A DNA stretch of 64,000 bases, from positions 84,228 through 148,227 of IMG/VR virus record IMGVR_UViG_3300042341_001202; one strand, 5' to 3'. Both the position numbers and the translations under genes were made by a program. Source of the DNA: a virus. Shown here piece after piece: positions 23,288 to 62,463 of the stretch (its first letter is position 1; each line of letters begins with the position of its first letter). Under the pieces are notes generated by a model. That model made no database searches. It was given only the letters and a program-made list of their open reading frames with translations, and was not told where the DNA came from.

Positions 23288-23304
23288 GATAAAAGGAATA
23301 AAAT

Positions 23305-23955
23305 ATGTATGTGTTAGTACATAACGAAAGAGTGTTGGTAGGTCCAATGAGTTGGAATAGGCCAATGTTTGAAGGCGGTCTGGACCGCCTTAAGATTTCA
23401 GCATTGCTGCCGCGCAATGACCCTGAAACCGTTCCTATTGTGATAGACGATGCCACCTATTTGACCACAGCACAGCTGGTGATACCCGATCATAACTCTC
23501 GAACACAAACCTATTATGGTCCGTTCTGGGATTTCACTAATCCTGCAATTGCCGTTGGTACATTTGAGATCAAATACAAGCAAATTTGGGAGATACAAGC
23601 TCAGTTGCGAGACGAGGCACAAGCCAATCGCTACACTGCTGAAGTGGGTGGCACACACACTGTGATACAAGGTAAAAAAGTTACTATTGACACTAGCAGA
23701 GAAGGTAGGAACATTTTTGTGCAAAAATACTCTCTTATGGCAACTGATGAAACAGTGAATTGGAAGTTTCCGGAAACTTGGCTCACTCTCACAAAAGATG
23801 AATTAGGCCAATGCGTCGCTGCTGGTGCAGCGCATATTCAAGCCACATTTGACTGGGAAAAACTCAAAGATGATGAAATCACTGCCTCAACCACTATAGA
23901 GGAGTTGGAAGTGTTAGTGGTAGGCAACGTGCCCAATCTAGTGAGTGGTGGTTAA
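23305..23955 (+). CDS. DUF4376-like tail fibre protein
   Basis: A 216-residue protein with AAAGGA before ATG 23305. The N-terminal beta region (YVLVHNERVLVGPMSWNRP) is followed by LVIPDHNSRTQTYYGPFWDF. A C-terminal helical domain has KQIWEIQAQLRDEAQANRYTA and GKKVTIDTSREGRNIF. This pattern of a short beta head and a DUF4376-like helical domain is typical of phage tail-fibre or chaperone proteins. It interrupts the RCC1 series, and may serve them. Confidence 0.6.
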   Translation: MYVLVHNERVLVGPMSWNRPMFEGGLDRLKISALLPRNDPETVPIVIDDATYLTTAQLVIPDHNSRTQTYYGPFWDFTNPAIAVGTFEIKYKQIWEIQAQLRDEAQANRYTAEVGGTHTVIQGKKVTIDTSREGRNIFVQKYSLMATDETVNWKFPETWLTLTKDELGQCVAAGAAHIQATFDWEKLKDDEITASTTIEELEVLVVGNVPNLVSGG

Positions 23956-23966
23956 GGAAGCGCAAG

Positions 23967-25340: not shown

Positions 25341-25341
25341 C

Positions 25342-26703: not shown

Positions 26704-28043
26704 TGTCTACCATCAATGTAGCTAATCTAGTGTTCACAATGCAGCAAAAAATATCCAGCACTACTAATGAGCAGGATTTGTTTTACTACAGCAAGGTATT
26801 GCAGCAGTTGAGAAGCGGCAAGGTGTATGTGGTGAACGCAGTGACTGATTTACCAACAGCCGCCGCAAATGTGGGTGAATTGTATTATGTTGTGTTGAAT
26901 ACCTCACTGTATGTGGCCACAGTTACGGGATGGGGTGTTATAGGTACTACTCCCCTAAACCAAATTTGGAGTTGGGGCTTTAACGGGTGTGGTCGGTTAG
27001 GAGACAACACTGTCACTAGTCGCTCAAGTCCAGTGAGAGAAATCACCAGTTCCACCACTTGGTGTCAAACTTCAGCCGCCGCTGCCAACGGTGGTAGGAC
27101 TAGTGCAATAAAAACAGATAGCACACTGTGGACTTGGGGCTACAATGTCTCTGGTCAGTTGGGAGATAACACTGTTACAAGTCGCTCAAGTCCTGTAAGG
27201 GAAATCACAAGCTCAACCACTTGGTGTCAAACTTCAGCTGGTAATGCCCACACAAGCGCATTGAAAACAGATAGCACACTTTGGAGTTGGGGAAATGCAT
27301 CCTGTGGTACGCTGGGAAACAACACTGTCACTAGTCGCTCAAGCCCAGTGAGAGAAATCACCAGCTCAACTACTTGGTGTCAAACTTCGTCAGGCGGGTT
27401 TAACAGCGGCAGCCATACCAGTGCATTAAAAACAGATGGCACACTTTGGACTTGGGGCTGGAACGGTTGGGGTCAGTTGGGAGACAACACTGTTACGGCT
27501 AAGTCAAGTCCAGTGAGAGAAAGTAGCAGTTCAACCACTTGGTGTCAAACTTCAGCAGGCCCTACGAATACTGCTGCAATAAAAACAAATGGCACACTTT
27601 GGACTTGGGGAGAAAACGGGTCGGGCCAGCTGGGAAACAACACCATCACTAATAGTTCAAATCCAAACATAGAAATTACCAACAGCACCAATTGGTGTCG
27701 AACTTCAGCTGGTATCCATACCGCTGCAATAAAAACAGATGGCTCCCTGTGGACTTGGGGATACAATGGCTCTGGTCAGTTGGGAGACACCACTGTTACC
27801 AATCGCTCAAGTCCTGTAAGGGAAATCACCAGTTCCACCACTTGGTGTCAAACTTCTGTCGGGTGGATACATACCAGTGCATTAAAAATATATGGCACAC
27901 TTTGGACTTGGGGCGGCAATGGCTCTGGTCAGTTGGGAGACACCACTGTTACCAATCGCTCAAGTCCTGTAAGGGAAATCACCAGTTCCACCACTTGGCG
28001 TCAAACATCAGCTGGTGGTTTTCACACCAGTGCCTTGAAGTAA
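26703..28043 (+). CDS. RCC1-repeat beta-propeller protein 5
   Basis: A 446-residue protein from ATG 26703. The N-terminal domain (LVFTMQQKISSTTNEQDLFYYSKVLQQLRSG) is clearly homologous to that of copy 2. About seven blades of 52 residues follow. One blade carries SSNPNIEITNSTNWCRT, a local divergence. The protein ends abruptly inside a blade (GGFHTSALK), so the last strand must come from the N-terminal part, as in closed propellers, or is missing. Confidence 0.82.
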   Translation: MSTINVANLVFTMQQKISSTTNEQDLFYYSKVLQQLRSGKVYVVNAVTDLPTAAANVGELYYVVLNTSLYVATVTGWGVIGTTPLNQIWSWGFNGCGRLGDNTVTSRSSPVREITSSTTWCQTSAAAANGGRTSAIKTDSTLWTWGYNVSGQLGDNTVTSRSSPVREITSSTTWCQTSAGNAHTSALKTDSTLWSWGNASCGTLGNNTVTSRSSPVREITSSTTWCQTSSGGFNSGSHTSALKTDGTLWTWGWNGWGQLGDNTVTAKSSPVRESSSSTTWCQTSAGPTNTAAIKTNGTLWTWGENGSGQLGNNTITNSSNPNIEITNSTNWCRTSAGIHTAAIKTDGSLWTWGYNGSGQLGDTTVTNRSSPVREITSSTTWCQTSVGWIHTSALKIYGTLWTWGGNGSGQLGDTTVTNRSSPVREITSSTTWRQTSAGGFHTSALK

Positions 28044-28056
28044 ATGGAGACAGAAC

Positions 28057-29406
28057 ATGCCAACACCCTCTGAAATCCAAACTAGTATTGACTCATTAAT
28101 AACTGCTTGCGACAGTGTTTGTTTTCCTTTGTTAGCAGCCCAAACCAGTGCTGCTGGAGTTGGCATTAGTTTTGTTGTTAACACAGTATCAGACTTACCT
28201 GACCTAGCTACAAAGTGCATAGGTTTTGGTCAAACAGTTTTTGTCAAAAGTATTTGTGTACCTGTAATATCCACTTGTACTTCATGGGTGGGATTGGATG
28301 GTAGGGTTTTACGTCGAGATTGGCCTCTTAGACAGATGTGGACTTGGGGTCGTAATATATGCGGTCCGTTAGGAGACAACACTGTTACAAGTCGCTCAAG
28401 TCCAGTGAGAGAAATCACCAGTTCTGTCACTTGGTGTCAAACTTCGGCAGGCAGCGCCTTCACTAGTGCAATAAAAACAGATAGCACACTGTGGACTTGG
28501 GGATACAATGTCCAGGGTCAGTTGGGAGTCAACACTGTTACAAGTCGCTCAAGTCCTGTAAGGGAAATCACCAGTTCAACTACTTGGTGTCAAACTTCAG
28601 CTGGTAATTCTCACAACAGTGCATTAAAAACAGATGGTACACTTTGGACTTGGGGATATAACGGGTGTGGCAGATTGGGAGATAACACTGTTACAAGTCG
28701 CTCAAGTCCAGTGAGAGAAATCACCAGTTCAACCACTTGGTGTCAAACATCAAGTGGTAGTTTTCACACCAGTGCATTAAAAACAGATGGTACACTTTGG
28801 AGTTGGGGAAATAACTATTGCGGTATGTTAGGAGACACCACTGTTACCAATCGCTCAAGTCCTGTAAGGGAAATCACCAGTTCCACCACTTGGCGTCAAA
28901 CATCAGCTGGTAAAGGTATTACCATCAGTGCAGTAAAGACAGATGGCACACTTTGGAGTTGGGGGTGTAATAGGTGTGGGCAGTTGGGAGATAACACTGT
29001 TACCAATCGCTCAAGTCCGGTGAGAGAAATAAGCAGCAGCACCACTTGGTGTCAAACTTCGGCAAGCGCCTGGACTAGTGCAATAAAAACAGATGGCACA
29101 CTTTGGAGTTGGGGATTTAACCAGTGTGGGCAGTTAGGAATCAACAACACAGGTCTACTATCAAGTCCAGGGAGAGAAATCACCAATTCCACCACTTGGT
29201 GTCAAACTTCAGCTGGTAGTAATCACAACACTGCAATAAAGACAGATGGCACACTTTGGACTTGGGGATTTAACGATTGCGGTGTGTTAGGAGATAACAC
29301 TGTTACCAATCGCTCAAGTCCGGTGAGAGAAATAAGCAGCAGCACCGCGTGGTGTCAAACTTCGGCCGGTTCCATGACGGCTGCAATTCTCCAGTGCTAT
29401 AACTAG
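28057..29406 (+). CDS. RCC1-repeat beta-propeller protein 6
   Basis: A 449-residue protein with GGAGACAG before the ATG. The N-terminal domain has SEIQTSIDSLITACDSVCFPLLAA and FGQTVFVKSICVPVISTCTSW, similar in plan to copy 3. Seven to eight near-identical blades follow, and it ends within a blade at SAGSMTAAILQCYN. It is the last gene of the array; a glycosyltransferase-like gene follows 32 bp later. Confidence 0.82.
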   Translation: MPTPSEIQTSIDSLITACDSVCFPLLAAQTSAAGVGISFVVNTVSDLPDLATKCIGFGQTVFVKSICVPVISTCTSWVGLDGRVLRRDWPLRQMWTWGRNICGPLGDNTVTSRSSPVREITSSVTWCQTSAGSAFTSAIKTDSTLWTWGYNVQGQLGVNTVTSRSSPVREITSSTTWCQTSAGNSHNSALKTDGTLWTWGYNGCGRLGDNTVTSRSSPVREITSSTTWCQTSSGSFHTSALKTDGTLWSWGNNYCGMLGDTTVTNRSSPVREITSSTTWRQTSAGKGITISAVKTDGTLWSWGCNRCGQLGDNTVTNRSSPVREISSSTTWCQTSASAWTSAIKTDGTLWSWGFNQCGQLGINNTGLLSSPGREITNSTTWCQTSAGSNHNTAIKTDGTLWTWGFNDCGVLGDNTVTNRSSPVREISSSTAWCQTSAGSMTAAILQCYN

Positions 29407-30272: not shown

Positions 30273-31877
30273 ATGAACATATTGGGAATGAATTTTTCTC
30301 ACGACGGTGCTGTGGCAGTTGTGAAAAATGGCAGATTAACAGCAGCTTTGGGAACAGAACGTGTTACTAGAGAAAAAAAGGCTTTTGGTGTAACCAACAA
30401 AACAATTGAGGCTATACTTCAGGAAGCTTCACTTAAACCTGAGGACATCAGTTGCATAGCATTGGCTGACTACAAGGCCAACCACAGCAACGGTGTCTTG
30501 GCACTATATGACAGTGATGGCAACACTGTGGAGAGAACTGCCTACTCACTCTACAACAACGACGTGCGAACGCTTACAGGTGTTTTCCTCGGCAGCCACA
30601 AAATACCAGTGTATGTGCTGCCACATCATTTGGCGCATGCCAGCAGTGCCTACTACACTAGCAATTTTGATAAGGCCATTTGTTTCAGCTTAGACAGCAG
30701 TTTTGGCGAACTTGGCGACAACAACATGGTGTTTTTTGGTGAAGGCACTAAGCTTCAAGCTCAAATGTGCCCAACACTCATCTCAGGTATTGGGTATGCC
30801 ATCTTCACCGAGCTGTTGGGTTTCTCCCCAGCCTACAGCAAGGCAGGCACCACCATGGGACTCAGCAGTTATGGTAAATCACTCACTGGCCCTATTTTTG
30901 ATGAGATTTTGAAAAAACAATGGTTCAGTGTTCAAGAACACGCTGAGTTGGAATACAGGAAGTTCTGGAGCAATGTGTGGGAAAAACTCATTGCCAAGCA
31001 CCCACATGAGCTCACACACAAGGAAAGCAGTGATTTGGCTGCTACTATTCAAGAGCTACTGGAGAAGAGTGTTCTGGAAACACTAGCTACACTGCACCAA
31101 ATTTATCCGCAACGACAGTTATGCCTCAGTGGTGGCAGCATGCTGAACTGCATCTTGAACAGCCGGATAGCTGAAAGCAAGCTTTGGGAGGGCATTCATC
31201 ACTTTCCTGCATGTGGCGATGACGGCAATGCGGTGGGCGCCGCTCTTTGGGTAGCGCACCATTTGTTTGACTTACCAAGGCAAAATTATCAACCGCAGAA
31301 TTTATGTTATTTGGGACCTTCTCAAAACACTACCTCCATTGTGGACTACACTAGAGTTTGTGAGCTACTGGCTCAAGGAGCTATAGTGGCCTGGCACTGG
31401 GGCAGAAGCGAATATGGGCCTCGAGCACTGGGCCACAGAAGTCTTTTGGCTGATGCACAAAGCTATCACATGCGTGAGAAAATAAATTTCGCAGTGAAAA
31501 ACAGAGAATGGTTTCGACCTATTGCGCCTGTGGTGTTGCAGGAACACGCCCACGATTGGTTCTCCTTGCCAATACCCTCGAGCCCCTACATGCTTTACAC
31601 TGCACAAGTGCTGAAGCCGCAACTGATTCCAGCAGTGTGTCATGTGGACAACAGTGCACGCCCGCAAACTGTTACAGCTGAACAAAATCCCCAGTTGCAC
31701 CAACTGCTCACTTGTTACCATCAATTGACAGGCGTTCCTGTGCTGTGCAACACCAGCTTGAATGGCGCTGGAGAGCCCATTATGGAAACTCCTGAACAGA
31801 GTTTGAGATTTTTTGAAACCAATGACAGCGTTGCCGCACTGATGTTGAATGGACAGCTTTTGGAGAAATCACAATGA
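30273..31877 (+). CDS. NodU/CmcH-family O-carbamoyltransferase
   Basis: A 534-residue protein. N-terminal actin-like part: GMNFSHDGAVAVV, GTERVTREKKAFG, HHLAHASSAYYTS (metal-binding His). Middle: CLSGGSMLNCILNSRI and ACGDDGNAVGAA. C-terminal Sua5-like part: GRSEYGPRALGHRSLLAD, REWFRPIAP, CNTSLNGAGEPIMETP. This is the full motif set of carbamoyltransferases, which use carbamoyl-phosphate and ATP to carbamoylate sugar hydroxyls. It starts 3 nt after the preceding stop with no Shine-Dalgarno; TATACT ends 6 nt before the ATG. Confidence 0.92.
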   Translation: MNILGMNFSHDGAVAVVKNGRLTAALGTERVTREKKAFGVTNKTIEAILQEASLKPEDISCIALADYKANHSNGVLALYDSDGNTVERTAYSLYNNDVRTLTGVFLGSHKIPVYVLPHHLAHASSAYYTSNFDKAICFSLDSSFGELGDNNMVFFGEGTKLQAQMCPTLISGIGYAIFTELLGFSPAYSKAGTTMGLSSYGKSLTGPIFDEILKKQWFSVQEHAELEYRKFWSNVWEKLIAKHPHELTHKESSDLAATIQELLEKSVLETLATLHQIYPQRQLCLSGGSMLNCILNSRIAESKLWEGIHHFPACGDDGNAVGAALWVAHHLFDLPRQNYQPQNLCYLGPSQNTTSIVDYTRVCELLAQGAIVAWHWGRSEYGPRALGHRSLLADAQSYHMREKINFAVKNREWFRPIAPVVLQEHAHDWFSLPIPSSPYMLYTAQVLKPQLIPAVCHVDNSARPQTVTAEQNPQLHQLLTCYHQLTGVPVLCNTSLNGAGEPIMETPEQSLRFFETNDSVAALMLNGQLLEKSQ

Positions 31878-47912: not shown

Positions 47913-49064
47913 ATGCGACGTCACACAATGCAGGCCCGTCCCAACTGGCGCGAGCGTGCCGAGGAAGTGGGCTTCACGTTTCACACAAGTGGCAACCCCA
48001 GCACTGGTGGAGATGGCACCTACTGGGACGAGACTGTGGCCTACGAGTTCACCAGTGCCGAGATTGATGAGCTGGAAGCTGCTACCGAAGAGGTGCATGC
48101 TCGCTGCCTCGATGCTGTGGACCGAGTGTTCAATGACCGTGAGCTGATGACGCGCATGGGCATCCCAGCTGACTATCACGACTACATCCAGTGGAGTTGG
48201 GCACGGAACGACCCATCACTCTATGGGCGATTTGACTTCGCCTATGACGGCAAGGGTCCGCCCAAGATGCTGGAATACAACGCTGACACGCCCACTATGG
48301 TGATTGAGTCGGCTATGATGCAGTGGTTTTGGCTACAGGACGAGCGCCGTGGCGCAGATCAGTTCAACAGCCTACATGAGCGCCTCGTGGAGCGATTTAC
48401 TGAGATTCGCGTGCTCATGCCACCGGGTGAGCCCTTTTACTTTGCTGGCTTTGGGGACAATGAGGAAGAGCGGCAGACTTGTGTGTATCTTCAGGACCTG
48501 GCCACACAGGCTGGCCTTGATGCACGCTTCATCAACCTAGGCGACATTGGCTGGCTCAACAATCAGTTTGTGGACCTGGAAGATCGCCCCATCAAGTATT
48601 GGTTCAAGCTGTATCCGTGGGAGTGGATGTTCTCGGATGAGTTTGGCCAGCACACAAGGAATGATGTCAGCGGCATCATTGAACCCATCTGGAAGTGCAT
48701 ACTGAGCAACAAAGGCATTCTGCCTGTGCTCCACGAGATGTTCCCGGATCACCCCAACATTCTGCCTGCCTACTGGACCTCAACAGAAGCTGGTGGCAGC
48801 GACTACGTGGCTAAGCCCATGCTCAGCCGTGAGGGTGCCAACATCAGTATTGTGAGCAATGGACGCGAGGTAGCGAGCACTGCGGGCAAGTATCACGGGC
48901 ACCGGATCTACCAACAGCGGGCGCGACTGTTCCAGCAAGATGGCCATCATGCTGTGATTGGCAGTTGGGTGGTGGGAGACAAGCCAGCTGGGCTCATCAT
49001 TCGAGACAGTGCCCGAGAGATTGTGCAGGACACCAGCCGCGTGGTGCCACATTGGTTTCTGTGA
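47913..49064 (+). CDS. ygiC: YgiC/YjfC-like ATP-grasp ligase (glutathionylspermidine-synthase family)
   Basis: A 383-residue protein from ATG 47913, close to E. coli YgiC in length. It matches throughout: RPNWRERAEEVGFTFH, PSLYGRFDFAYDG, LEYNADTPT, SDQFNSLHERL-equivalent, FKLYPWEWM, ISNKGILPVLHEMFPDHPN, VAKPMLSREGANISI, VIGSWVVGDKPAG and QDTSRVVPH. The family has the ATP-grasp synthetase fold of glutathionylspermidine synthase but lacks its amidase half. The true substrate of YgiC is unknown; a peptide or polyamine ligation is assumed. GC is visibly above the rest of the window. Confidence 0.9.
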   Translation: MRRHTMQARPNWRERAEEVGFTFHTSGNPSTGGDGTYWDETVAYEFTSAEIDELEAATEEVHARCLDAVDRVFNDRELMTRMGIPADYHDYIQWSWARNDPSLYGRFDFAYDGKGPPKMLEYNADTPTMVIESAMMQWFWLQDERRGADQFNSLHERLVERFTEIRVLMPPGEPFYFAGFGDNEEERQTCVYLQDLATQAGLDARFINLGDIGWLNNQFVDLEDRPIKYWFKLYPWEWMFSDEFGQHTRNDVSGIIEPIWKCILSNKGILPVLHEMFPDHPNILPAYWTSTEAGGSDYVAKPMLSREGANISIVSNGREVASTAGKYHGHRIYQQRARLFQQDGHHAVIGSWVVGDKPAGLIIRDSAREIVQDTSRVVPHWFL

Positions 49065-49321
49065 GGGACTGGTTTGCACCAATTGGGACAGACATCAGCA
49101 AGTGGCGGAAACTGCCTCCGAACCAAAGAGTCTCTAGCAATAATCTATTGGCTGCTGGTTATCCGTATGTTCTGGTTCAAAATTCACAGAGTAATAAATG
49201 GAGTGAGATTCACGCATGGTGCCAAAATGTTTTGGGACAAGACAACTACACCTGGACTGGTGATGTGTTTTGGTTCCTCACAGAAGATGATGCAGTAAAA
49301 TTCTCACTTGTGTGGGGCTAA
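49061..49321 (+). CDS. W/F-motif small protein, copy 1
   Basis: GTG 49061 overlaps the YgiC-like stop (GTGA); 86 residues. N-terminal: DISKWRKLPPNQRVSSNNL, then AGYPYVLVQNSQSNKWSEIH, AWCQNVLGQDNYTW. The C-terminal signature is TGDVFWFLTEDDAVKFSLVW. Copy 2 shares the whole plan and has the same last 20 residues. Function unknown. Confidence 0.7.
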   Translation: MRDWFAPIGTDISKWRKLPPNQRVSSNNLLAAGYPYVLVQNSQSNKWSEIHAWCQNVLGQDNYTWTGDVFWFLTEDDAVKFSLVWG

Positions 49322-49401
49322 CATGGAAAAAAACATTGGTTTTCCTAGTTGACATTGATATTCGAGTTACCATATGGCCCTATCTTTCAGCAGAGACGCC
49401 C

Positions 49402-49638
49402 ATGTTTGATATAACAAAATGGACTCGGCTTCCTAAAGACAGAATTGTGTACGGCAAAGATCTTCAGGACGCCGAGTATCCTTTTGTCTACACGTCAAAA
49501 GAACATTTTGGCAAGTGGCAGGAGATACATCAATGGTGCAACACTGTGATTGGCGCTGACAGATACACTTGGACCGGTGATGTGTTTTGGTTTCTCACGG
49601 AAGATGATGCTGTGAAATTCTCATTGGTATGGGGGTAG
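49402..49638 (+). CDS. W/F-motif small protein, copy 2
   Basis: ATG 49402 is chosen; a frame extension to 49312 exists but lacks similarity to copy 1. 78 residues: FDITKWTRLPKDRIVYGKDL, AEYPFVYTSKEHFGKWQEIH, QWCNTVIGADRYTW, and the same C-terminal signature as copy 1. A weak promoter (TTGACA 49349-49354, 16 bp, CATATG) lies upstream. Confidence 0.7.
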   Translation: MFDITKWTRLPKDRIVYGKDLQDAEYPFVYTSKEHFGKWQEIHQWCNTVIGADRYTWTGDVFWFLTEDDAVKFSLVWG

Positions 49639-52413: not shown

Positions 52414-52677
52414 CTAATCTTCAACTATCAACAATTTCAAATCCCCTGAGCCCTTCAATAGTCTATGGAAGGTGTCTCGGGGGATTCTCACGACATCGCC
52501 GGGCTTGAGATTGCAGGGCATGCAGTTGTCCATTTGAAGTTGCCAACCATTACCCTCAACCACTGTAATAAGTCTGTGACAGTGATCTCGATGCCACACT
52601 AGCTCATGAGAATCTACAGATTGAAAGAATGTTCTTTCCAAACCTTGAATTTGTTTCTTGTCACTGTAGGGATTCAT
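52414..52677 (-). CDS. Cupin-like small protein
   Basis: 87 residues from ATG 52677, sharing bases with the upstream TAA. VWHRDHCHRLITVVEGNGWQ gives a His-rich cupin motif 1, and LKPGDVVRIPRDTFHRLLKG is motif 2 with its His. Similar small cupins are frequent in T4-like cyanophages beside virion-type genes. Ligand unknown. Confidence 0.75.
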   Translation of the reverse strand: MNPYSDKKQIQGLERTFFQSVDSHELVWHRDHCHRLITVVEGNGWQLQMDNCMPCNLKPGDVVRIPRDTFHRLLKGSGDLKLLIVED

Positions 52678-53255
52678 TACCACCATTTGGCACTAATTGG
52701 ACTCAATCCCAAGGATTTAGTATAGCGGGGAACTCTACACGCCCAGTATCCAGCCTTCATTTTGTCTGTTTTTTGTTCACAGTTGTGACGAGAAGCAAAC
52801 GCTTTGCGTCGTTTGGGATCGCGGATTTTAACACTCAAACCTGACACATCACCAAAGGCAATTTTTTTGACCCTGCCTGTTTTGGGATTCTTGACGTAGA
52901 CGTAATACTTTTTAGGACCGCCTCTCTTGGGCTTGTTAAGCTCAACAGCTTTTCCTTGATACTCAGCCTCATCAAGACTTTCTGGAGTTTCAAAAATACA
53001 ATCCAACGGAACCATTCTGCCTTCATACACACCAAACGTGCCTAAATCACTCTCAATCATGTCCTGGTCAAGAGCGTGTTCCAAGAGTATATCTCCACAA
53101 GAAACACGACGTCGCATCTCACAAAAAAACTCAAACCAAGCTGGGCTGTGAATACGGAATATGTTATCAACTAGCGGAACTTTGTTATCCTGGTGCCATT
53201 GAATGGCTTGATTTACACTTTCATTCAAAGGTTGCGTAAGGTCTTGAATTTTCAT
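52677..53255 (-). CDS. Tagged virion-type protein with basic C-terminal module
   Basis: A 192-residue protein. N-terminus MKIQDLTQPLNESVNQAIQW carries a capsid-targeting-like tag with a possible LNE cleavage site. The middle has DGIL-like acidic stretches (GDILLEHALDQDM). The C-terminal basic module reads KPKRGGPKKYYVYVKNPKTG, FGDVSGLSVKIRDPKRRKAF, ASRHNCEQKTDKMKAGYWAC, a pattern I recognise from T4-like marine phages, function unknown. A late-type element lies 31-38 nt upstream. Confidence 0.65.
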   Translation of the reverse strand: MKIQDLTQPLNESVNQAIQWHQDNKVPLVDNIFRIHSPAWFEFFCEMRRRVSCGDILLEHALDQDMIESDLGTFGVYEGRMVPLDCIFETPESLDEAEYQGKAVELNKPKRGGPKKYYVYVKNPKTGRVKKIAFGDVSGLSVKIRDPKRRKAFASRHNCEQKTDKMKAGYWACRVPRYTKSLGLSPISAKWW

Positions 53256-53285: not shown

Positions 53286-53293
53286 TATTTAGA
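53286..53293 (-). promoter_or_regulatory. Late-type promoter element
   Basis: Read on the minus strand as TCTAAATA, overlapping the sirtuin stop. Expected start near 53280; ATG 53255 follows CTGGGA. Confidence 0.5.
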
Positions 53294-54020
53294 AACCAAA
53301 ATGCTCTTGTAAGATCTTGTCTATTTTGTGCAGTTGTTGAGTTACAGGCCCTAATAGGCAGTGAGTCCAGTGAGAAGGAACTATCGGAGGCAAGTAGCCG
53401 TCAATGTCCCGATTTAAATTTAACACGTTGATTACACTAGGACAATCCAACACTTTTGCGAAGTTATCAACAGGAACAACTGAGCCTGATGTTCCAATAC
53501 ACAGGAACAGGCTTTTGTCTGTAAGGCTGTCCAGTGTGTTGTAGAGATATTGGTATTTGGGTGCTGGTTCACCAAACAACACTACCGCAGGCTTGACATC
53601 AGTCAGGCTTTGGCAATTGGGACAACCTAGGGAGATGTTGTATCGAGTGTAGCCAATATTCCAAACATGGCCACAGTTTTCGCATTGCATTTCATCCAGC
53701 TGTCCGTGAACATGCACAACAGGGATGCAACCAGCCTCCTCTAGCAAGAGGTCTGCATTTTGAGTTATCACTGTTGCACTGTATTTTCTCTGCCATTCTG
53801 CCACCTGTTTGTGGGCGGCGTTTGGCTGAAACTTCAGAAGCATTTCCCGTAAGTCGCTGTGAAATTCATTTACAATTTGAAAGTTTTGTCGCCAAGTGGC
53901 GTAATTACTGTAAACCAATGGATCATAACGGCTCCATAAACCTTCGCTATCTTCTCTAAATGTGGGGATGCCGCTTTCAGCACTCAAACCAGCGCCGCTA
54001 AAAATCAATAATTGGGTCAT
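53289..54020 (-). CDS. Sir2-family NAD-dependent deacylase (sirtuin)
   Basis: 243 residues from ATG 54020. NAD site: LLIFSGAGLSAESGIPTFRE. TQNADLLLEEAG is the TQN(I/V)D motif with a small change. VVHVHGQ holds the catalytic His. The zinc ribbon is CENCGHVWN and CPNCQ. FGEPAP and CIGTSGSVVPV complete the NAD pocket. Sirtuins remove acyl groups from lysine or hydrolyse NAD. Divergently transcribed from the 54117 gene; a TTGCAA-18-CATAAT promoter on the minus strand predicts a leaderless mRNA. The packaged proteins downstream carry acetyltransferase modules. Confidence 0.88.
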   Translation of the reverse strand: MTQLLIFSGAGLSAESGIPTFREDSEGLWSRYDPLVYSNYATWRQNFQIVNEFHSDLREMLLKFQPNAAHKQVAEWQRKYSATVITQNADLLLEEAGCIPVVHVHGQLDEMQCENCGHVWNIGYTRYNISLGCPNCQSLTDVKPAVVLFGEPAPKYQYLYNTLDSLTDKSLFLCIGTSGSVVPVDNFAKVLDCPSVINVLNLNRDIDGYLPPIVPSHWTHCLLGPVTQQLHKIDKILQEHFGF

Positions 54021-54104
54021 AATTTTGATTATGCAACAAATTTCTGGAGGGTTGCAATCCAATTCTCATGTTTACTGCCTTTGTATTGTGCTCACTGTCC
54101 AGAC

Positions 54105-54112
54105 AATAAATA
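54105..54112 (+). promoter_or_regulatory. Late-type promoter element abutting ATG 54117
   Basis: AATAAATA (seven of eight) ends 5 nt before ATG 54117; predicted transcript start within a base of the codon. No Shine-Dalgarno lies between them. Confidence 0.5.
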
Positions 54113-54116
54113 TACT

Positions 54117-54755
54117 ATGCCATATTTGAATCATAATATCCCCGTTTTAACATGCCTAATACGTAACCAATACCTTTACAATCACACCAAAGGCCACGGC
54201 GAGTTCACTCCCTGTGATGTACACAGTGTCGCAAGTATGGAGAAACGCACGCCTTTATTTGAAGCATTTTTGGAAAATGGAGTGAACTGGACACGTCGAC
54301 CCATAACTGCTTTTTGTTGGCGTAATGATGCACCAGTAAGACCACTTGCAGAACATGTTTATTGGGACTGTTTCAGTCATTATATTGATGTGCAGGTCCG
54401 GCAACGCATGGCGGGGTTAAGGGCTACGTTGTTGGTTTACACTGGGGAACGTCGTCAAGGACAATACTGTATGACTTTAGACTGGGGTTGGGAAAACTCT
54501 GCTTTTACTGACACCAATTTCAGTGAAACGCCTGAACACAAATGCGCGCATTTGTTCAAAATGGATGAAGGAAACTATTATCTTTATCCCAACAATAGAA
54601 TCATTTGGCATGACAATGCTTGGGTGAAAAATCCTATAACCAGTAATCCTGGGTATCAAATAGACATGACAGTCTACAGTGTGGAGAACGCTGTGGACTT
54701 TTATACAGATGACAGCTATATGACACATGTGGAGCCTGTAAATGAAGCTGGTTGA
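54117..54755 (+). CDS. Conserved phage protein of unknown function
   Basis: The start is placed at ATG 54117 by the promoter element; an upstream extension to 54012 would run through the promoter. 212 residues: PYLNHNIPVLTCLIRNQYLY, NHTKGHGEFTPCDVHSVAS, PITAFCWRNDAPV, VYWDCFSHYIDV, then HKCAHLFKMDEGNYYLYPNN and RIIWHD. I recognise this block order from cyanophage-type genomes but know no function. It overlaps the first polyvalent-protein gene by 14 nt, suggesting a packaging partner. Confidence 0.7.
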   Translation: MPYLNHNIPVLTCLIRNQYLYNHTKGHGEFTPCDVHSVASMEKRTPLFEAFLENGVNWTRRPITAFCWRNDAPVRPLAEHVYWDCFSHYIDVQVRQRMAGLRATLLVYTGERRQGQYCMTLDWGWENSAFTDTNFSETPEHKCAHLFKMDEGNYYLYPNNRIIWHDNAWVKNPITSNPGYQIDMTVYSVENAVDFYTDDSYMTHVEPVNEAG

Positions 54756-57700
54756 TATTTTGGAAAACAAGGAGGACCAACAGAATCAAAAACCCAGTGT
54801 GTTCAGCCAGTGGGAAGACACTGACCCAAAGAATGACAAGCCGGAAGAGTCAAAAAATAATCCCAGTGAACTCTATCATAGCACTATACTAGACAATGCG
54901 CCTAATATCCTGCAATCAGGATATATAACAACCTCTATCTACAAAGATCCAGCCAAGGATATAGTGTTTGATTCTCGCTCTACAACACCCCATACATCAC
55001 CAACTATAGCTGTTCTCACTTCTTGTGGGACACTGATGCAAACCTACAACGAACAAATTTCTCGCCAGCTAACGACGGCAAGCAGTCAACTGGGAACGCA
55101 AAGCAAAGCCTATCGAGCCTTGCGTGCCATCAGTCACGTTTTGGAATCACAGAAGCTTTTTGAAAACGATCCACAACTAGGTAACAACAGCATTTGGCTC
55201 TACACTGAAGGTTGCCAAAGTGCATTGCACATACTGCTCGACAACAAGACAGCAAAAATCACTTGGTTAGGTAGTTTGAATGGCACTGGTAGGCAACTTT
55301 TGGAGCAGGGGTTAGCACAAAGCCAGAAACAAGGTGCCTTACTCGCTGTTGTGAAACCCATCTGGAACAGCCACAAATTTTATGAGAAGATGGGATTTCA
55401 AGATCAAGGAACTGGTTATTGGAACTTACCTCTTGAGGAATCAGCTAATCAACTGGATCGCGCAGATCTAGAAGACTTATTGGGTGCAATCACATATGAG
55501 CAAGAAGAGATTAACGACGCCAGCTATGATGCTGCGGGACCAAAGTATGAAAAACTTGACAAGGATTTCAAAGCCTTAGAGGCTGTTGCTTATGTGGTTA
55601 AAAATAACTTACGAGCACTTGACAATCCCAACTTGGGAAAAAATAGCATTTTCCTCTATAACTATACCCCAGATCTAGGCGTGTTCAGTGTAACTGCAAT
55701 ACATGTGGTGATTGAAAATCAAGTGGCGCATGTGAAATGGTTGGGCAGTTATGACAACAAACCTGGTGCTGGCAAAGCGTTGATGTTACAAGCCTTGACT
55801 ATCGCAAAGAACAAAGGGGCCACCAAGAGCGTCGTAGAGGCCAAATGGGAAAGCGAAGGCTTTTATCACAAGCTGGGTTACGATGTGGAGAACAGAGGAT
55901 CAAACAACCCATTTACAGGCACCAGTTTAGTCCAAATGGGAAAGAAGTTGGAAGAAGCTTGGACTGATGAAGACCAGCGTATGGTTCACAAAAATCCCAC
56001 AATTCAAGATTTGAAAAGGTTGGCACGCAACAACAAGTATCACAGTGCCAGATTTGTGATCTACAAAGATGGCAGTGTTGTGGCTGCGGATAGCGAACAT
56101 TATACTCACCACAGTGCTGCACCTGCCATGGGCGCTTGGGCTTTGAGAGGGTATGTGCAATACTTGGGTGGCAACGACTATGCCTATCGCAGCATGGAAG
56201 TCTACAGTCCCAAAAGTGTTGACCATCCTCTTTTCCGCAAGTGGGAATCTAGTGGTATAGAGAATGGCAATCCCTCTGTTGTTGAGGAAAAATGGACCAA
56301 AAAGTATAAGAAGAGTATCAACTGCTCTAATCCTCAAGGGTTCAGCCAACGTGCTCACTGTGCTGCTAGACGCAAACGACAAAAGGGCGGAAAGACAACT
56401 AGCAAGCCCTTGAATGAAAACAATAACGTAGAAATACACAACTATAAAAAGCTGGATCGCATCTTAGTTGCATTGTGTAACCTAGTTGACACCAGACGAA
56501 AGAAAAACCCTGACAAATACGGATGGGTAGCCGCAGGGTTGTTGGATCCCCGCAACCGTCTTGTAATAGGTTTCAGCACATTTGCCAATGACAAATGGTA
56601 TCATGCTGAACGATTGGCTATGAGGGCTTATCGTAAAAAATACGGAAGCATACCTGATGGCTGTATAATTGTAACCACATGCAGTCCATGCAGCGAGCAG
56701 ATGCCAAGATATGGTGAAAGTTGTACTGACCTAATCAACAAGAGTCCTGTCAAAAAAGTCTATTGCGGCTACTCTGATACAACTCAATCCCAAAGTCAAC
56801 GCACTTTCAATATTATGGTTACTGCTGATACAAACATACGAGAACGGTGCCAAAAATTTGCTGAAAACTTCATGGATTGGGAAGCGCAATATTTGGATGA
56901 AAGCTTGCGTGATTGGTTCAAACAAAAATGGGTGCGATTTGGGACAGATGGCAAGATCAGAGGCGACTGTGCTAGAGGCAGTGAAGGCGAAGGCAAGCCC
57001 AAATGCCTGCCACAGCGGAAGGCTTGGGCACTGGGCAAGAAAAAACGTGCAACTGCTGCTAGGCGCAAGCGTAGAGAAGATCCCAATCCTGAACGTGAAG
57101 GCAAGGCCCGGAACGTAGCCACAAAAGAAAGTGTTGGCTCTACAAAATTGGGAGATCTCTGCACTATCAAAACTAATTTTCCTGATGCTGACTTTTGGCT
57201 TGTGCGACGCAGTGATAGAACAAATGTGGGCACACCAGCCAAAGAATTCAGTCCCTATCATATTGGAATCAAAGTCACAGCTACTGAACAGCTGATGCCA
57301 GAATATCTCTACTATATGATGATGCATCTCCACAACCAAGGCTATTGGAACAGTCGAAGCATGGGCATGAGCAATCTTGTGCACATACGCACAGAAGATG
57401 TGAAAAACATACAACTGGCTTTGACAGAGCATGAGCTGAAAGAAAACTCCAGTTGTCCACATTGCGGAGGCCAAATGGTTAACTACTCTATGCTCAGTGA
57501 AAAACAAGATGCCTGCTACTACAAAGTCAAGAGTCGCTACAAAGTTTGGCCCAGTGCCTATGCCAGCGGTGCATTAGTGCAGTGCAGGAAAAAGGGTGCA
57601 AAAAACTGGGGCAAGAGCAAGACAAATGAAAGCATAAGCATTGATCAACAAGAGGAACATGGAGGTCTCGAAGCCTACATAACTGATACATCTACCCCAC

Positions 57701-58470
57701 AATTGGTCAATTATCTTGCAAGTGAAAATGCACCCGCCGACCTTGCAGAAAAATTGCAACGCAGATACAAAACAATAGCTGTGTTCAAAAACATATGGGT
57801 CGAGGAAGATCATCAAGGGTCTGGAGTAGGTAGCTGGATTTTAGAGGCTGGTATTGGGGATGCAATAGACAACCAGGCTCATGCTGTCATTCTCACTGCT
57901 GTCTCAGATGATCCCAAAAGACAATCACAACTTGAGAAATGGTATAAGTCTTATGACTTCAAAGAAATAGCTCGCAGTTCAACTGGGTATCCTGTGATGT
58001 TACTAGATTTAAACAAAGACCAGGTCTCAGAAGCTGCCCCGTGGCTCGGGCAGGGAGATGAGCCACTGCCCACTAAACTCTATCATGTCACAAGAACAAG
58101 AAACCGTTTGAGCATACGCCAGAGAGGACTTGTTCCCAAAACAAAGGAACATGATCATATATTGCGACAACCAGGTGTGTTTCTGTTTGAAACTTTTGAA
58201 CAAGCTGAAGATTGGGCTTACTATTGGAGTCAAGATGAGGGCGAGAGTATGGATATATGGGAAATCAAGGTTCAAGATCCCAATGATCTAACTCCTGATC
58301 CAGCATTGGATATTCAGCACGATTACGATGCATGGGTCATCTACAAGCCAATTCCTGCAGCCAATGTGAGGCTGAAATTTACGCAACGCTGGCCGGAACC
58401 TTGGGGAAAGCCTACTACAACGGTGAAAAAAATCCGCAACCTTGAAGAAGATCCTAATGAAACTGAATGA
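54742..58470 (+). CDS. Packaged polyvalent protein 1 (GNATs, deaminase, HsdS-like, ART-like)
   Basis: A 1242-residue modular protein. Capsid-targeting-like N-terminus MKLVDILEN. Modules: ART-like LYHSTILDNAPNILQSGYI (about 40-60); GNAT 1 (145-228); GNAT 2 (280-385); unknown module with HTHH-type His (405-520); basic KKSINCSNPQGFSQRAHC (525-550); deaminase-like with HAER and CSPC (560-705); basic WVRFGTDGKIRGDCARG module (720-790); HsdS-like FSPYHIGIKV ... YLYYMMMHLHNQGYW (800-895); zinc ribbon SCPHCGG (903-910); GNAT 3 with DHQGSGVGSWIL (960-1090); ART-like LYHVTRTRNRLSIRQRGL (1110-1225). LxE motifs near 231-233, 402-404, 557-559, 718-720 and 899-901 could be prohead-protease sites. Confidence 0.8.
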   Translation: MKLVDILENKEDQQNQKPSVFSQWEDTDPKNDKPEESKNNPSELYHSTILDNAPNILQSGYITTSIYKDPAKDIVFDSRSTTPHTSPTIAVLTSCGTLMQTYNEQISRQLTTASSQLGTQSKAYRALRAISHVLESQKLFENDPQLGNNSIWLYTEGCQSALHILLDNKTAKITWLGSLNGTGRQLLEQGLAQSQKQGALLAVVKPIWNSHKFYEKMGFQDQGTGYWNLPLEESANQLDRADLEDLLGAITYEQEEINDASYDAAGPKYEKLDKDFKALEAVAYVVKNNLRALDNPNLGKNSIFLYNYTPDLGVFSVTAIHVVIENQVAHVKWLGSYDNKPGAGKALMLQALTIAKNKGATKSVVEAKWESEGFYHKLGYDVENRGSNNPFTGTSLVQMGKKLEEAWTDEDQRMVHKNPTIQDLKRLARNNKYHSARFVIYKDGSVVAADSEHYTHHSAAPAMGAWALRGYVQYLGGNDYAYRSMEVYSPKSVDHPLFRKWESSGIENGNPSVVEEKWTKKYKKSINCSNPQGFSQRAHCAARRKRQKGGKTTSKPLNENNNVEIHNYKKLDRILVALCNLVDTRRKKNPDKYGWVAAGLLDPRNRLVIGFSTFANDKWYHAERLAMRAYRKKYGSIPDGCIIVTTCSPCSEQMPRYGESCTDLINKSPVKKVYCGYSDTTQSQSQRTFNIMVTADTNIRERCQKFAENFMDWEAQYLDESLRDWFKQKWVRFGTDGKIRGDCARGSEGEGKPKCLPQRKAWALGKKKRATAARRKRREDPNPEREGKARNVATKESVGSTKLGDLCTIKTNFPDADFWLVRRSDRTNVGTPAKEFSPYHIGIKVTATEQLMPEYLYYMMMHLHNQGYWNSRSMGMSNLVHIRTEDVKNIQLALTEHELKENSSCPHCGGQMVNYSMLSEKQDACYYKVKSRYKVWPSAYASGALVQCRKKGAKNWGKSKTNESISIDQQEEHGGLEAYITDTSTPQLVNYLASENAPADLAEKLQRRYKTIAVFKNIWVEEDHQGSGVGSWILEAGIGDAIDNQAHAVILTAVSDDPKRQSQLEKWYKSYDFKEIARSSTGYPVMLLDLNKDQVSEAAPWLGQGDEPLPTKLYHVTRTRNRLSIRQRGLVPKTKEHDHILRQPGVFLFETFEQAEDWAYYWSQDEGESMDIWEIKVQDPNDLTPDPALDIQHDYDAWVIYKPIPAANVRLKFTQRWPEPWGKPTTTVKKIRNLEEDPNETE

Positions 58471-61351
58471 CCTATTGAACAAGCCTACCAGTAGCGTAGC
58501 TGAGCTGGCTAAAAAATACAAAGTGTCAACAGACTCTGTGGAGAAACAGCTGGCACAGGGCATCAAAGTGGAGATGGAACACACCCGGTTGCGGAGTGTG
58601 GCGCGAGAAATAGCCTTGGATCACTTGGGTGAGGATCTTAACTATTACAAGAAATTGAGCAAACTTGAGAAAAAGCCTGCTCAAGAAGCTCTTCTGATAG
58701 AGCTGTTTGCCCTGCTAAATGAAGTAAAAATCGACAATGTGAGTGGCATTGGGGAAGTGCCTGACAATAAGAATGTGGATTATCTTGGCTTGAGAGTCGC
58801 GATGAAGCCCAGTGTATTTTTGAAATTGGCTAGCCCTTTGTCAAGAGAACATGCTGGGAGTGTGGATTATATCAAACAGCAACTAGATCAAGGGCAGGGA
58901 ATGGCCAGTCCTTGGCTGGTCTTAGACATACCAATAGAATGGGAAAAAGGTCGTTATAATAAATCCGCAAGAGTAATTGGGCACGAAGGCCGCAACAGAA
59001 TGTATGCGGTCCTAGAAACTGAAGGCGATGCACCTGTTGAAACTCATTTGTTTTTTGTCGGTGGATTGCGTGCTAGGCACATCAAACCTGAATGGATTGA
59101 AGCACTCAACCTGCGTCTTGTACCACAGAGAGCAAACACTAGTGTATCTGGCCCGTTTTTTGAACTGCTGTTAAAGACTCAAAAAAGTCTCTCAGAAGAA
59201 AATGAAAACAAAAGAGACACATACCGTGTAACCTGGAGAGGTAGATTGGGCGAATATGATCCCAATTATTTTGACATCAAAAGTGACCCACTTGAAGACG
59301 ATGATGGCAAAGTCATCGCCGTAAAAGATCAGCTTGTTCCCAAATCTCATTTGCGTGCCAATTTAAACATAACTCCAAATCCCAACCTAGTGTATAGGGG
59401 CATGAGTAATCATGAATTTCAAAATATCAAAAAAACAGGAGTGATACAAAGCAAAGGCGAGTATAACTTGGCTGGGCAACAGGGCTTAACCTATTTTTCA
59501 ACTGAACCCAGGTCAGCTGAAACTTATGCTCATAGTTTTGCACCATGGAATCAAAAAGCCAACTGGGACAATCCAGCATGGGTAATTGCAGTGCCCAAAC
59601 CTGATGAATCAAAAATTGTGCATGTGCAAGGCACAGGATCACATGAAGTGGGAGTCAAAGGCTCTATACCAGCGAATCAAATAAGGGAGATATACCGAGG
59701 AAAGGTTGTAGAATACGATCCTGGTGTGCACAACCAAGTTGCACCATCAGCATGGCTGCATTGGGAGAAAATGCCTGTTGATACATTGTTAACAGAGCGC
59801 AAAGGTGCGCCTGGCACTCTCAAATCCAAAATCACCAGACTGTATGGCGGAGGTGTCACATGTGACAAAACACAAAAACTCAAAACACGCCAGGGTGCTA
59901 CAACTCTAGACAAACGCCAAGCCAACTGGTTTCAAAACAAACATTGCGGCGGAGCAACTAGAGTTGATGAAATCATAAGTGGTGAGCATATTCCAGGCGA
60001 TTGGAAAAAATATGGAAGCGGCGACGCAGAAATGTTTGAAACAGAGTTTGATCTTCAAGGATATAAGATCACAATAAGTGTGAGTCGGGATTGGGCCCAA
60101 TCTGGTGCCTATGTGTTGATGAAGAAAAACATAGAGGCTGGAGCAAACCTGGTTGGCAGAGAAATAATATTCAGGGTAGATGGCGAAACTGATCCAACAG
60201 GCTTACTAGGCACAGGTGCAGCGAATGTAATTTCAATTGTTGTAGGAAAAATCATAGGACTACTACAAAATATAGAATGGGACTATTTGGTCTTCGCAGG
60301 TGCTGGGGACAGTAGACAAAGAGTATATACTAAAATATTGAGTCAGATATCTCCAGGACTTGATTCAGAGCCAATGCAATTTGGAGATTGGTTCCTGCTG
60401 ATCAAAAACCATTTGTTGGCAGCAAAATCTCAAGAGCTGGATGAAGTTTTTAAAGGCAAGCCACTTCCTGGAGATTGGCAATCAATAAAGGGCGGTTCAA
60501 CCCACTACACTGAATTTGAATTTGCTGGCAGTGAAGTGCAAATAGCAGTCGTAAAAGACGCTTCTTATGAGCTTCAAACTATCTTGCAAAAGCAAGTGCC
60601 AGAAAACTGGGTTGGATATGAAGTGTCCTTCTCTGTAGATCACAGCATCTCTGTAACAGGTATGTTTGACCAAAAAAGTGCCCAATTATTTGATTTGATT
60701 ATACGAAAACTCAAATGGTTTTTCCAGACCCACAGCTGGGACTACATCAACTTCAGTGGGGATGAGCGCAGCCGCAACAAGCTCTATCTCCGGCTGGCAA
60801 AACAGTTGGCACCTGCTGATAGCACAGTGTTGCACACTAACAAAAGCTTTGCAATTGTCAAGCAGGACAAGCTTGCATCATTCACTAACTTGGACGAAAG
60901 TTTAAGTTACAAAGGTTTGCGTCCTGGAGCAAATATTTGGTATGAGCCTGGCATGCAATATTCCCAATATAATTTATATCCAGGCAAAAGTATTGTGGGC
61001 CAGCGAGTATACCATATGACCAATAAGCTTACAAGTATAATAAAGTCAGGCGGACTGAAACCAAAATATGATGAGACTGGTGCTAGAGAATTTGGCCGAT
61101 ATAGCACTGTGGAATATCCTTTCACTCCAGTTATTGCTATATTTTTTGATGTTGGTGAGCATGATTGGTTTGGCAAATACATCTTAAGTTGGGAAATAAC
61201 ACCTGAGGATAAAACTGCACGAGCATATATGCCAGTAGATACCATGCAGCCTTCAGATAGAGATAATTTGCTGCCCAATTGTCAGGTAACACCTGTAAGT
61301 ATTGATAGGATTACTATCACAGATCTCAAAGGAAACCTTATAAAAGTATGA
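58457..61351 (+). CDS. Packaged polyvalent protein 2 (ADP-ribosyltransferase-like)
   Basis: ATG 58457 inside the preceding gene end; 964 residues. N-terminal tag MKLNDLLNKP, then a DUF5661-like helical domain (VEMEHTRLRSVAREIALDHLGED). Residues about 95-240 hold VDYLGLRVAMKPSVFLKL and IGHEGRNRMYAV, a conserved phage module. The ART-like domain (about 305-420) has VYRGMS, TYFSTEP and HEVGVKG, fitting the R-S-E order of T4 Alt-type enzymes. Then a basic module with GATTLDKRQANWF, two copies of a WDY module (535-810), and a C-terminal ART-like VYHMTNKLTSIIKSGGLKPK. LDE and LNE motifs lie near 87, 660 and 812. Confidence 0.75.
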   Translation: MKLNDLLNKPTSSVAELAKKYKVSTDSVEKQLAQGIKVEMEHTRLRSVAREIALDHLGEDLNYYKKLSKLEKKPAQEALLIELFALLNEVKIDNVSGIGEVPDNKNVDYLGLRVAMKPSVFLKLASPLSREHAGSVDYIKQQLDQGQGMASPWLVLDIPIEWEKGRYNKSARVIGHEGRNRMYAVLETEGDAPVETHLFFVGGLRARHIKPEWIEALNLRLVPQRANTSVSGPFFELLLKTQKSLSEENENKRDTYRVTWRGRLGEYDPNYFDIKSDPLEDDDGKVIAVKDQLVPKSHLRANLNITPNPNLVYRGMSNHEFQNIKKTGVIQSKGEYNLAGQQGLTYFSTEPRSAETYAHSFAPWNQKANWDNPAWVIAVPKPDESKIVHVQGTGSHEVGVKGSIPANQIREIYRGKVVEYDPGVHNQVAPSAWLHWEKMPVDTLLTERKGAPGTLKSKITRLYGGGVTCDKTQKLKTRQGATTLDKRQANWFQNKHCGGATRVDEIISGEHIPGDWKKYGSGDAEMFETEFDLQGYKITISVSRDWAQSGAYVLMKKNIEAGANLVGREIIFRVDGETDPTGLLGTGAANVISIVVGKIIGLLQNIEWDYLVFAGAGDSRQRVYTKILSQISPGLDSEPMQFGDWFLLIKNHLLAAKSQELDEVFKGKPLPGDWQSIKGGSTHYTEFEFAGSEVQIAVVKDASYELQTILQKQVPENWVGYEVSFSVDHSISVTGMFDQKSAQLFDLIIRKLKWFFQTHSWDYINFSGDERSRNKLYLRLAKQLAPADSTVLHTNKSFAIVKQDKLASFTNLDESLSYKGLRPGANIWYEPGMQYSQYNLYPGKSIVGQRVYHMTNKLTSIIKSGGLKPKYDETGAREFGRYSTVEYPFTPVIAIFFDVGEHDWFGKYILSWEITPEDKTARAYMPVDTMQPSDRDNLLPNCQVTPVSIDRITITDLKGNLIKV

Positions 61352-62463
61352 GAATTTACCATTTAGTGCCCTTAAAGAAGTTGCTAGAAGCTTATCAGCC
61401 ATTGACAACCAAATGGCAACAAGACAATGTGGGCTCAGTTTCAAGATATATTACAAGCTTTGAGTATGATGACCATTTAGTCGAACAAAGACTTACTCAA
61501 GATAAAAATCAAAAAGACTTACAGGATGCATTGGCTGCCAGTGATTTAGAGCCCAATCCACAAGCCAAGGGCTATGTTTGGTTATGGACAGTGGATGGGG
61601 AAATAGAACAAACTGGCACAATGGGCCTTAAGGCCATACCCTTGTGGAAAGAATTGGTGCGACGCCTCTTTGGTTGGCTTGGATCTCATGAATGGGACTA
61701 CTTGACTTTTATTGGTGGACGCGGCAGCAGGAACAAGCTCTATAGCGCATTGGGTCAAATGTTGGCGCAGAGAGCTGGTGCCAAAGTATATTTTGATTTT
61801 GACACAAGTGACTTTGTTGTATATAAGCCCAGTGCAATAGTTCAACCAAAATTGCAAGAGGCTTTTGATTACCAACTTCCCCGGGATAAATGGAAGATAA
61901 AAACAGAAGGCGACAGCTATATTGATTTTTTGTTTGAAATTGATGGCAACGAATACGAGCTTCGAATGTCTCGATTGCAAGAGCCTCAGAAGAGGGGTAT
62001 TTACGAGGTGGAATTTAGGCACACAGAGTATGGCATGGACATAAGTGGCACAGGTTCAGCCTTTAAAGTCTTCAGTGCTGTGTTTCAACTTCTCAAGTAT
62101 GCTATTGATCATCAAAAAACCTTACCTGTAAATGGACTTTGGTTCCAGGCTTGGGCCCCGAGCAGGAAAAAGCGTTATAAGAGTATGGCACCAAAATTAG
62201 CAAGACATCTGGGTTGGACTTGGGTAACCAAGCAAGAGAGTTTTCCCTACTCTCTCTCGCCAGGAACAGATGGCTACTTGATTCTCAAACCCAGTCTTGG
62301 CGAAACAGCTGGTGTGGGCAAGATAGTTAAAGGTGTGAACACTACCACCGATGTGGGACCTGATGCTGTTCAAAAACAAGCCCGGAAATTTCTCAACAAA
62401 GTCACAGCAGGAGGAGTTCCTCCTCAAACTCAAAGCAATGGCAAATTTCCCTCGGTTAAATAA
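61348..62463 (+). CDS. Packaged protein 3, tandem WDY modules
   Basis: A 371-residue protein with ATGA overlap. The N-terminus MRIYHLVPLKKLLEAYQPL has a targeting-like tag and an LLE site. Two copies of the module found in protein 2 follow: GTMGLKAIPLWKELVRRLFG, HEWDYLTFIGGRGSRNKLYS (first copy); DISGTGSAFKVFSAVFQLLK, FQAWAPSRKKRYKSMAPKL (second copy). An LQE motif near 169-171 separates them. The C-terminal 50 residues are polar (GVNTTTDVGPDAVQKQARKF). No catalytic motif is recognised. Confidence 0.7.
   Translation: MRIYHLVPLKKLLEAYQPLTTKWQQDNVGSVSRYITSFEYDDHLVEQRLTQDKNQKDLQDALAASDLEPNPQAKGYVWLWTVDGEIEQTGTMGLKAIPLWKELVRRLFGWLGSHEWDYLTFIGGRGSRNKLYSALGQMLAQRAGAKVYFDFDTSDFVVYKPSAIVQPKLQEAFDYQLPRDKWKIKTEGDSYIDFLFEIDGNEYELRMSRLQEPQKRGIYEVEFRHTEYGMDISGTGSAFKVFSAVFQLLKYAIDHQKTLPVNGLWFQAWAPSRKKRYKSMAPKLARHLGWTWVTKQESFPYSLSPGTDGYLILKPSLGETAGVGKIVKGVNTTTDVGPDAVQKQARKFLNKVTAGGVPPQTQSNGKFPSVK
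62455..62462 (+). promoter_or_regulatory. Late-type promoter element abutting ATG 62470
   Basis: GTTAAATA overlaps the preceding stop and ends 8 nt before ATG 62470, predicting a leader of about 2 nt. Confidence 0.4.

Follow-up and report, generated by a model that had tools for sequence, protein, structure and literature searches.

The 64,000-nt window analyzed here (bases 84,228 to 148,227 of the 148-kb viral contig IMGVR_UViG_3300042341_001202) contains three long, co-directional genes that overlap by 14 nt (genes 1 and 2) and 4 nt (genes 2 and 3). Coordinates refer to the window, unless they are marked as belonging to its own contig or to G001 (L047), a 328.6-kb related contig used for the head-gene search and promoter counts. 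G001 is 100% identical to the window's own contig across 76,091 bp, all three genes included, and the combined size of the two contigs is at least 400 kb. Protein 1 (1,242 residues; 54742..58470, +), protein 2 (964 residues from its ATG; 58457..61351, +; an alternative TTG start at 58442 would give 969) and protein 3 (371 residues; 61348..62463, +) add up to 2,577 residues, in agreement with a preliminary description of the sequence, which had put about 2,570 residues in three overlapping genes.

We consider it probable that a T4-type jumbo phage makes these three proteins late in infection as effector polyproteins, which would be addressed to its head and cut by a gp21-like protease. In this mechanism, an N-terminal tag of 7 to 10 residues, analogous to the T4 capsid-targeting sequence (CTS), would bring proteins 1 and 2, and perhaps protein 3, into the prohead core. 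During head maturation, the protease would then cleave after [LIV]-x-E in the linkers, freeing separate GNAT, deaminase, ADP-ribosyltransferase (ART)-like and small basic or zinc modules. The freed modules would remain with the DNA, enter the host alongside it, and modify host proteins or counter defenses ahead of phage gene expression. The domain content, the positions of the motif, the exchange of tags and the presence of the protease in G001 are direct observations. We infer packaging and cleavage of the three proteins with good support from their sequences, regard injection of the modules as plausible, and also infer that the modules have targets in the host.

Linker motifs and N-terminal tags

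The linker test used 14-residue windows directly upstream of homologous module starts, in sequences that are related to one another. [LIV]xE occurs in 50 of the 54 junction windows, compared with 14.9% of control windows, and is the most enriched of 480 residue-pair patterns, bar one single-occurrence pattern with a near-zero control rate. When the residues were shuffled within each window (2,000 trials), the motif turned up in 17.9 windows on average and never in more than 28, and E-richness of the linkers was rejected as the cause on this basis; the signal is [LIV] at −2 plus E. At loci kept out of motif discovery, the motif was present in 21 of 29 cases (control, 18%), where it ranked second by z-score, behind a pattern whose top rank came from a less common trait of the zinc-ribbon module. 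The (L/I)xE motifs that the preliminary description had placed between modules therefore occur there far above chance. For comparison, T4 gp21 cleaves after L/I-X-E (PMC9026906). The middle position is unconstrained; for example, the junction LGE/T in protein 3 (62296..62304, +; a slash marks the putative cut or the end of a leader), reads LGE, LDE, LQE, LSE and VQE in five proteins, protein 3 and its relatives. Since the codons differ among the window's own sites, the similarity of the linkers lies in the protein. For this phage we rejected the idea that the linkers derive from a common DNA repeat, because the codons differ and the 21-mer encoding EQGVAEG, described below, is absent.

The tags were scored with a matrix whose training set came exclusively from other phages, applied to 503 gene starts in the window's own contig and G001. 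Protein 2 (MKLNDLLN; 58457..58480, +, beginning within the last codons of protein 1) ranked first with 16.6 bits, and protein 1 (MKLVDILE/N; 54742..54765, +) ranked third with 11.2 bits; as background, the top score among 1,935 internal Met positions was 9.5 bits. A strict regular expression applied to greedy gene starts did not yield a clear tag signal and missed proteins 1 and 2. The tag resembles the T4 CTS in its length, basic start and hydrophobic pair, and in T4 10 residues are enough for head targeting (PMC9026906).

The tags are also swapped onto different modules in relatives. There, modules of proteins 1 and 2 are encoded by genes of their own, and every such gene has an individual short leader. 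Specifically, the block internal to protein 2 that begins at LNE/VKIDN (58715..58723, +) starts genes in relatives as MKLWDFLQE/VKIDN, MRLIDLFEA/VKIDN and MIDLFEA/VKIDN, and relatives' leaders on parts of protein 1 are MKLSNLFD (residue 75 on), MKLLDLFE/A (402 on) and MKLQELLD (510 on). In other strains these modules are found in different orders and within different genes, a turnover as expected of rapidly exchanged effectors.

Uncut packaging is the main rival. It holds that the tagged proteins enter head and host intact, like ordinary polyvalent proteins, and that the [LIV]xE linkers are scars of gene fusion, left over from tags ending in LxE. We judge this unlikely, even though some linkers align exactly with relatives' tags (LNE/VKIDN with MKLWDFLQE/VKIDN; KKLEE/A with MKLLDLFE/A) and there are known polyvalent proteins that are transferred without processing (PMC5512222). 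Most linkers are otherwise unlike tags, and divergent homologues retain the motif though its middle residue and neighbors vary, which scars would not do. In addition, a gp21-like protease would encounter the [LIV]xE sites inside the prohead.

Head genes, a late-promoter-like motif and proposed packaging

Cleavage of head-targeted polyproteins, the reading that we prefer, involves a gp21-like protease, the absence of which the preliminary description had named as refuting its proposal. A search of the window's own 148-kb contig, a fragment without head genes, found no S77/gp21-like protease. The gene was found in G001, so the refuting condition does not hold for this virus (237,839-238,264; PF03420, E=3.2e-23; phrog_207, E=4.5e-56), and its product contains GELDHP and SSRG motifs. 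G001 also encodes a portal (phrog_213), a core-like protein (phrog_10922) and a T4-type capsid protein, which is 63% identical to the capsid protein of the Pseudomonas jumbo phage MIJ3 over the first 123 residues. The capsid protein contains GILFE/NATPG, a site of the [LIV]xE type, and its LFE/N presumably corresponds to the cut position of T4 gp23, as placed relative to the conserved GVQPM block.

The operon opens with a 212-residue gene (phrog_3704; 54117..54755, +) that overlaps the start of protein 1. At its head lies the late-promoter-like motif AATAAATA (54105..54112, +), of the pattern [ACT][AT]TAAATA, which resembles the T4 late promoter. G001 has 36 plus-strand copies of this pattern, 27 of them at most 130 nt from a gene start, and motifs of this type also lie upstream of the portal, prohead-protease and tail-sheath-like genes. 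The chance probability of such a motif at any given operon start is about 0.014. Because the motif at 54,105 is just 12 nt upstream of the first gene's ATG, the transcript would be nearly leaderless.

Published virion data bear on packaging. S-SZBM1_140, a tagged protein of a T4-like cyanophage and a relative of the tagged cytidylyltransferase described below, has the N-terminus MRFRQFIIEAVAAA; this protein and its neighbor S-SZBM1_139 were detected by liquid chromatography-mass spectrometry in CsCl-purified virions (PMC9146016). This detection of a tagged relative, the tags and their swapping, the linker motif and the late-promoter-like motif all agree with what the preliminary description had proposed. 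A cytidylyltransferase and a kinase were likewise found in S-CREM2 virions, for which the authors allow high expression during infection as the explanation instead (PMC10665884).

Several observations weigh against the polyprotein reading. The three genes lie about 160 kb away from the head cluster, and the module anchors of the linker test were picked after reading the sequences. T4 and capsid-protein leaders fail to score with the tag matrix; the likeness is thus one of design only, and the tag is an analogue of the CTS, not demonstrably the same signal. The preliminary description had seen tags on all three proteins, which holds for proteins 1 and 2 and was too strong for protein 3, whose tag is weak (-1.3 bits). 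As the end of the tag, (L/I)xE occurs only in protein 1 (ILE/N); protein 3 has LLE/A further in (61381..61389, +), and protein 2 has LLN, with N where E is expected. In T4, Asp at the E position of the tag permits targeting and blocks processing (PMC9026906).

The distance from the head genes, together with a sirtuin gene (SIR2, 129 bits; 53289-54062, -) that adjoins the operon, would also suit late products that work inside the infected cell without ever being packaged, with tag and linker motif serving some other purpose. We find this improbable, given that the linker signal is a specific one, [LIV] at -2 plus E and not E-richness, and that a tagged relative is present in virions. That the proteins are instead parts of the head core or scaffold, cut during maturation and largely lost, like T4 gp22 and gp67, whose several cleavage fragments mostly exit the head (PMC9026906), is very hard to credit, since the enzyme domains among their modules (GNAT, deaminase) are intact and vary among strains 95-98% identical elsewhere, and the phage has a separate core-like protein.

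Module content and related proteins

Under the polyprotein reading, the modules between the linker sites would be the cargo. Within protein 1 (all features on the plus strand), GNAT 1 (residues 100-230; 55039..55431; Pfam Acetyltransf_7/FR47) is followed by the site LEE/S (55432..55440), and GNAT 2 (about residues 255-402; 55504..55947; Pfam Acetyltransf_10) by LEE/A (55948..55956), the module downstream of which begins its own gene in L066 with the leader MKLLDLFE/A given above. LNE/N (56410..56418), where homology breaks in L012 and L065, precedes a cytidine-deaminase-type domain with HAE and CSPC intact (56419..56886; PF00383), which matches PDB deaminases (E=4e-4). Next come LDE/S (56893..56901), with a homology break at residue 718 in five relatives, and the basic module LRDWFKQKWVRFG...RRKRREDPNPER (56902..57129; phrog_727 and phrog_23735, with cyanophage matches). 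LKE/N (57436..57444) precedes the zinc ribbon CPHCGG, which is followed by the site LSE/K and a WPSAYASG module (together 57445..57615; phrog_3477); the LxE between ribbon and WPSAYASG module is kept in relatives. GNAT 3 (57694..58011; Pfam) is precisely lost from a strain in L057, which lacks residues 965-1091 and is 98% identical elsewhere in protein 1. The C-terminal ART/KptA-like module (58063..58449; weak Pfam match PF01885), which ends in LEE/DPNETE, sits internally in L066. Region 808-913 gave no match in the sequence search, and the AlphaFold model of protein 1 was unusable (predicted local distance difference test score [pLDDT], 33).

The GNAT, deaminase-like, zinc-ribbon and basic modules named in the preliminary description are borne out. 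PF13508 (Acetyltransf_7; 51.9 bits, in three stretches) and dCMP_cyt_deam_1 (38.7 bits) exceed the Pfam cut-off, and the basic and zinc-ribbon/WPSAY modules, recognized via PHROG and cyanophage matches, are common to hundreds of cyanophages (phrog_727, E=2e-40).

In protein 2 (plus strand), DUF5661 (58517..58690; PF18905, 44.2 bits) lies ahead of LNE/VKIDN. LSE/E (59189..59197; LSE or ISE in relatives) precedes an ART-like domain with the motifs YRG, FST and HEVG (59219..59782), after which come LTE/R (59789..59797; VTE or IDE in relatives), LDE/V ahead of the second repeat domain (60437..60445) and LDE/S ahead of a C-terminal ART-like module (60890..60898). Both repeat domains are common to protein 3, in which a pair of them is followed by a GVGxVV module at the C-terminus, with a further linker site at LQE/A (61852..61860, +). 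Candidate insertions in L006-L011 were rejected; the longer match arose from the repeat domains common with protein 3.

The ART-like block of protein 2 shares 46% identity (47% in a separate alignment) with a protein of a Planktothrix phage that bears the name "large polyvalent protein". This block has no significant Pfam or PDB profile match, and no ADP-ribosyltransferase profile exceeds the cut-off in the three proteins, where matches are weak only. The label "ART-like" comes from the motifs and the similarity to a polyvalent protein, and the ART-like modules are less secure than the preliminary description had stated. An AlphaFold model of protein 2 (pLDDT 53, moderate) gave insignificant Foldseek matches to the PDB (best E=0.0085) and was not used.

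Tags of this kind occur on other genes of the phage. A 739-residue protein (G001 216104-213885, -) combines DUF6267, a cytidylyltransferase-like domain and an Acb1 domain (E=1.2e-18), directed against the cyclic-oligonucleotide-based antiphage signaling system (CBASS). A gene starting MKISEITL... (own contig 25946-26431; L002) carries a PolyVal-type kinase domain, for which the PF18762 Kinase-PolyVal profile gave E=0.001, below cut-off. One starting MLIRELLSE... (own contig 48520-49485; L003) has an ART-like end. A 192-residue gene, MKIQDLTQPLNES... (52677..53255, -), has the joint second tag score, and its product resembles the end of a tagged protein of phage Melnitz. A related tagged polyprotein elsewhere (L067 4713-8360) has a sigma-factor-like segment at about residues 230-315, resembling annotated phage sigma factors.

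Multi-module proteins in freshwater viral contigs (L085-L164) are punctuated by EQGVAEG; a single protein can have as many as seven motifs of the GVAEG type. The 21-mer encoding EQGVAEG, GAGCAAGGTGTGGCGGAAGGC, is present in 86 copies and is conserved even at third positions, with random flanks. This third-position conservation suggests selection or copying at the DNA level, and suggests that the 21-base element may, in some phages, serve both protein cutting and recombinational shuffling of modules. Tentatively, and with somewhat more doubt than belief, we extend this to a general effector-polyprotein system of T4-type and many freshwater phages, in which tagged chains of interchangeable modules with capsid-protease sites between them would enter the prohead, head maturation would also free the cargo, and EQGVAEG would have its dual role in some phages.

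Elsewhere in the window, related genes, each of about 440 residues, form a series (20622-29406) whose first two members match RCC1-like phage families, and a Nol-like carbamoyltransferase is encoded at 30273-31877. Nine consecutive, apparently paralogous genes of about 200-270 residues, starting MV(D/N/S)..., lie on the minus strand of the own contig (32393-38297), and a similar start occurs at the end of G001.

Comparison with known systems

What is apparently new is that multi-module effectors would be processed by the capsid protease, not by an embedded peptidase; the literature searched, mostly outside subscription journals, gave no description of a prohead protease as a processor of polyvalent proteins. 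If true, the capsid-maturation protease doubles as the processor of injected effector polyproteins, which would account for the separation of multi-domain phage proteins that have no embedded peptidase. The combination of a tag with [LIV]xE punctuation would then be a rule for finding early effectors among unannotated genes of T4-type phages, and would also cover fused anti-defense enzymes such as Acb1.

Polyvalent proteins (Iyer et al. 2017, PMC5512222) likewise mix ART, GNAT, kinase and other domains and are predicted to be injected. Here, too, several effector-type domains stand in one phage chain, and the ART-like block of protein 2 matches a protein bearing that name. Iyer et al. likened polyvalent proteins to viral polyproteins processed by embedded peptidases (PMC5512222); they proposed release by an embedded metallopeptidase, whereas here the capsid protease would do so. 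Pfam and PHROG profiles gave no match to an embedded peptidase, which is frequent, not universal, in polyvalent proteins, in the three proteins. The same authors placed no Alt-like ART within genuine polyvalent proteins (PMC5512222).

The DarB/DarA antirestriction system of P1 likewise includes a protein of very large size that is packaged in the head and has a capsid-targeting signal at its N-terminus (PMC9024508); no array of motifs between modules is described for it there. The cyanophage basic/WPSAY proteins (T4-GC 119 and relatives) share the same modules, often with [LIV]xE upstream, and their genes lie in the late terminase/neck cluster; unlike the proteins described here, they are shorter and have fewer modules, and an N-terminal tag is not evident in the three examined. 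T4 IPI-III and Alt, together with gp21, offer parallels in a short N-terminal tag-like leader, the PF03420 protease family, the L/I-x-E cut motif and, putatively, an ART in the head (PMC9026906). T4 cargo, however, is encoded as one protein per gene and trimmed at its ends, whereas each gene here encodes up to about ten modules, with the motif between them.

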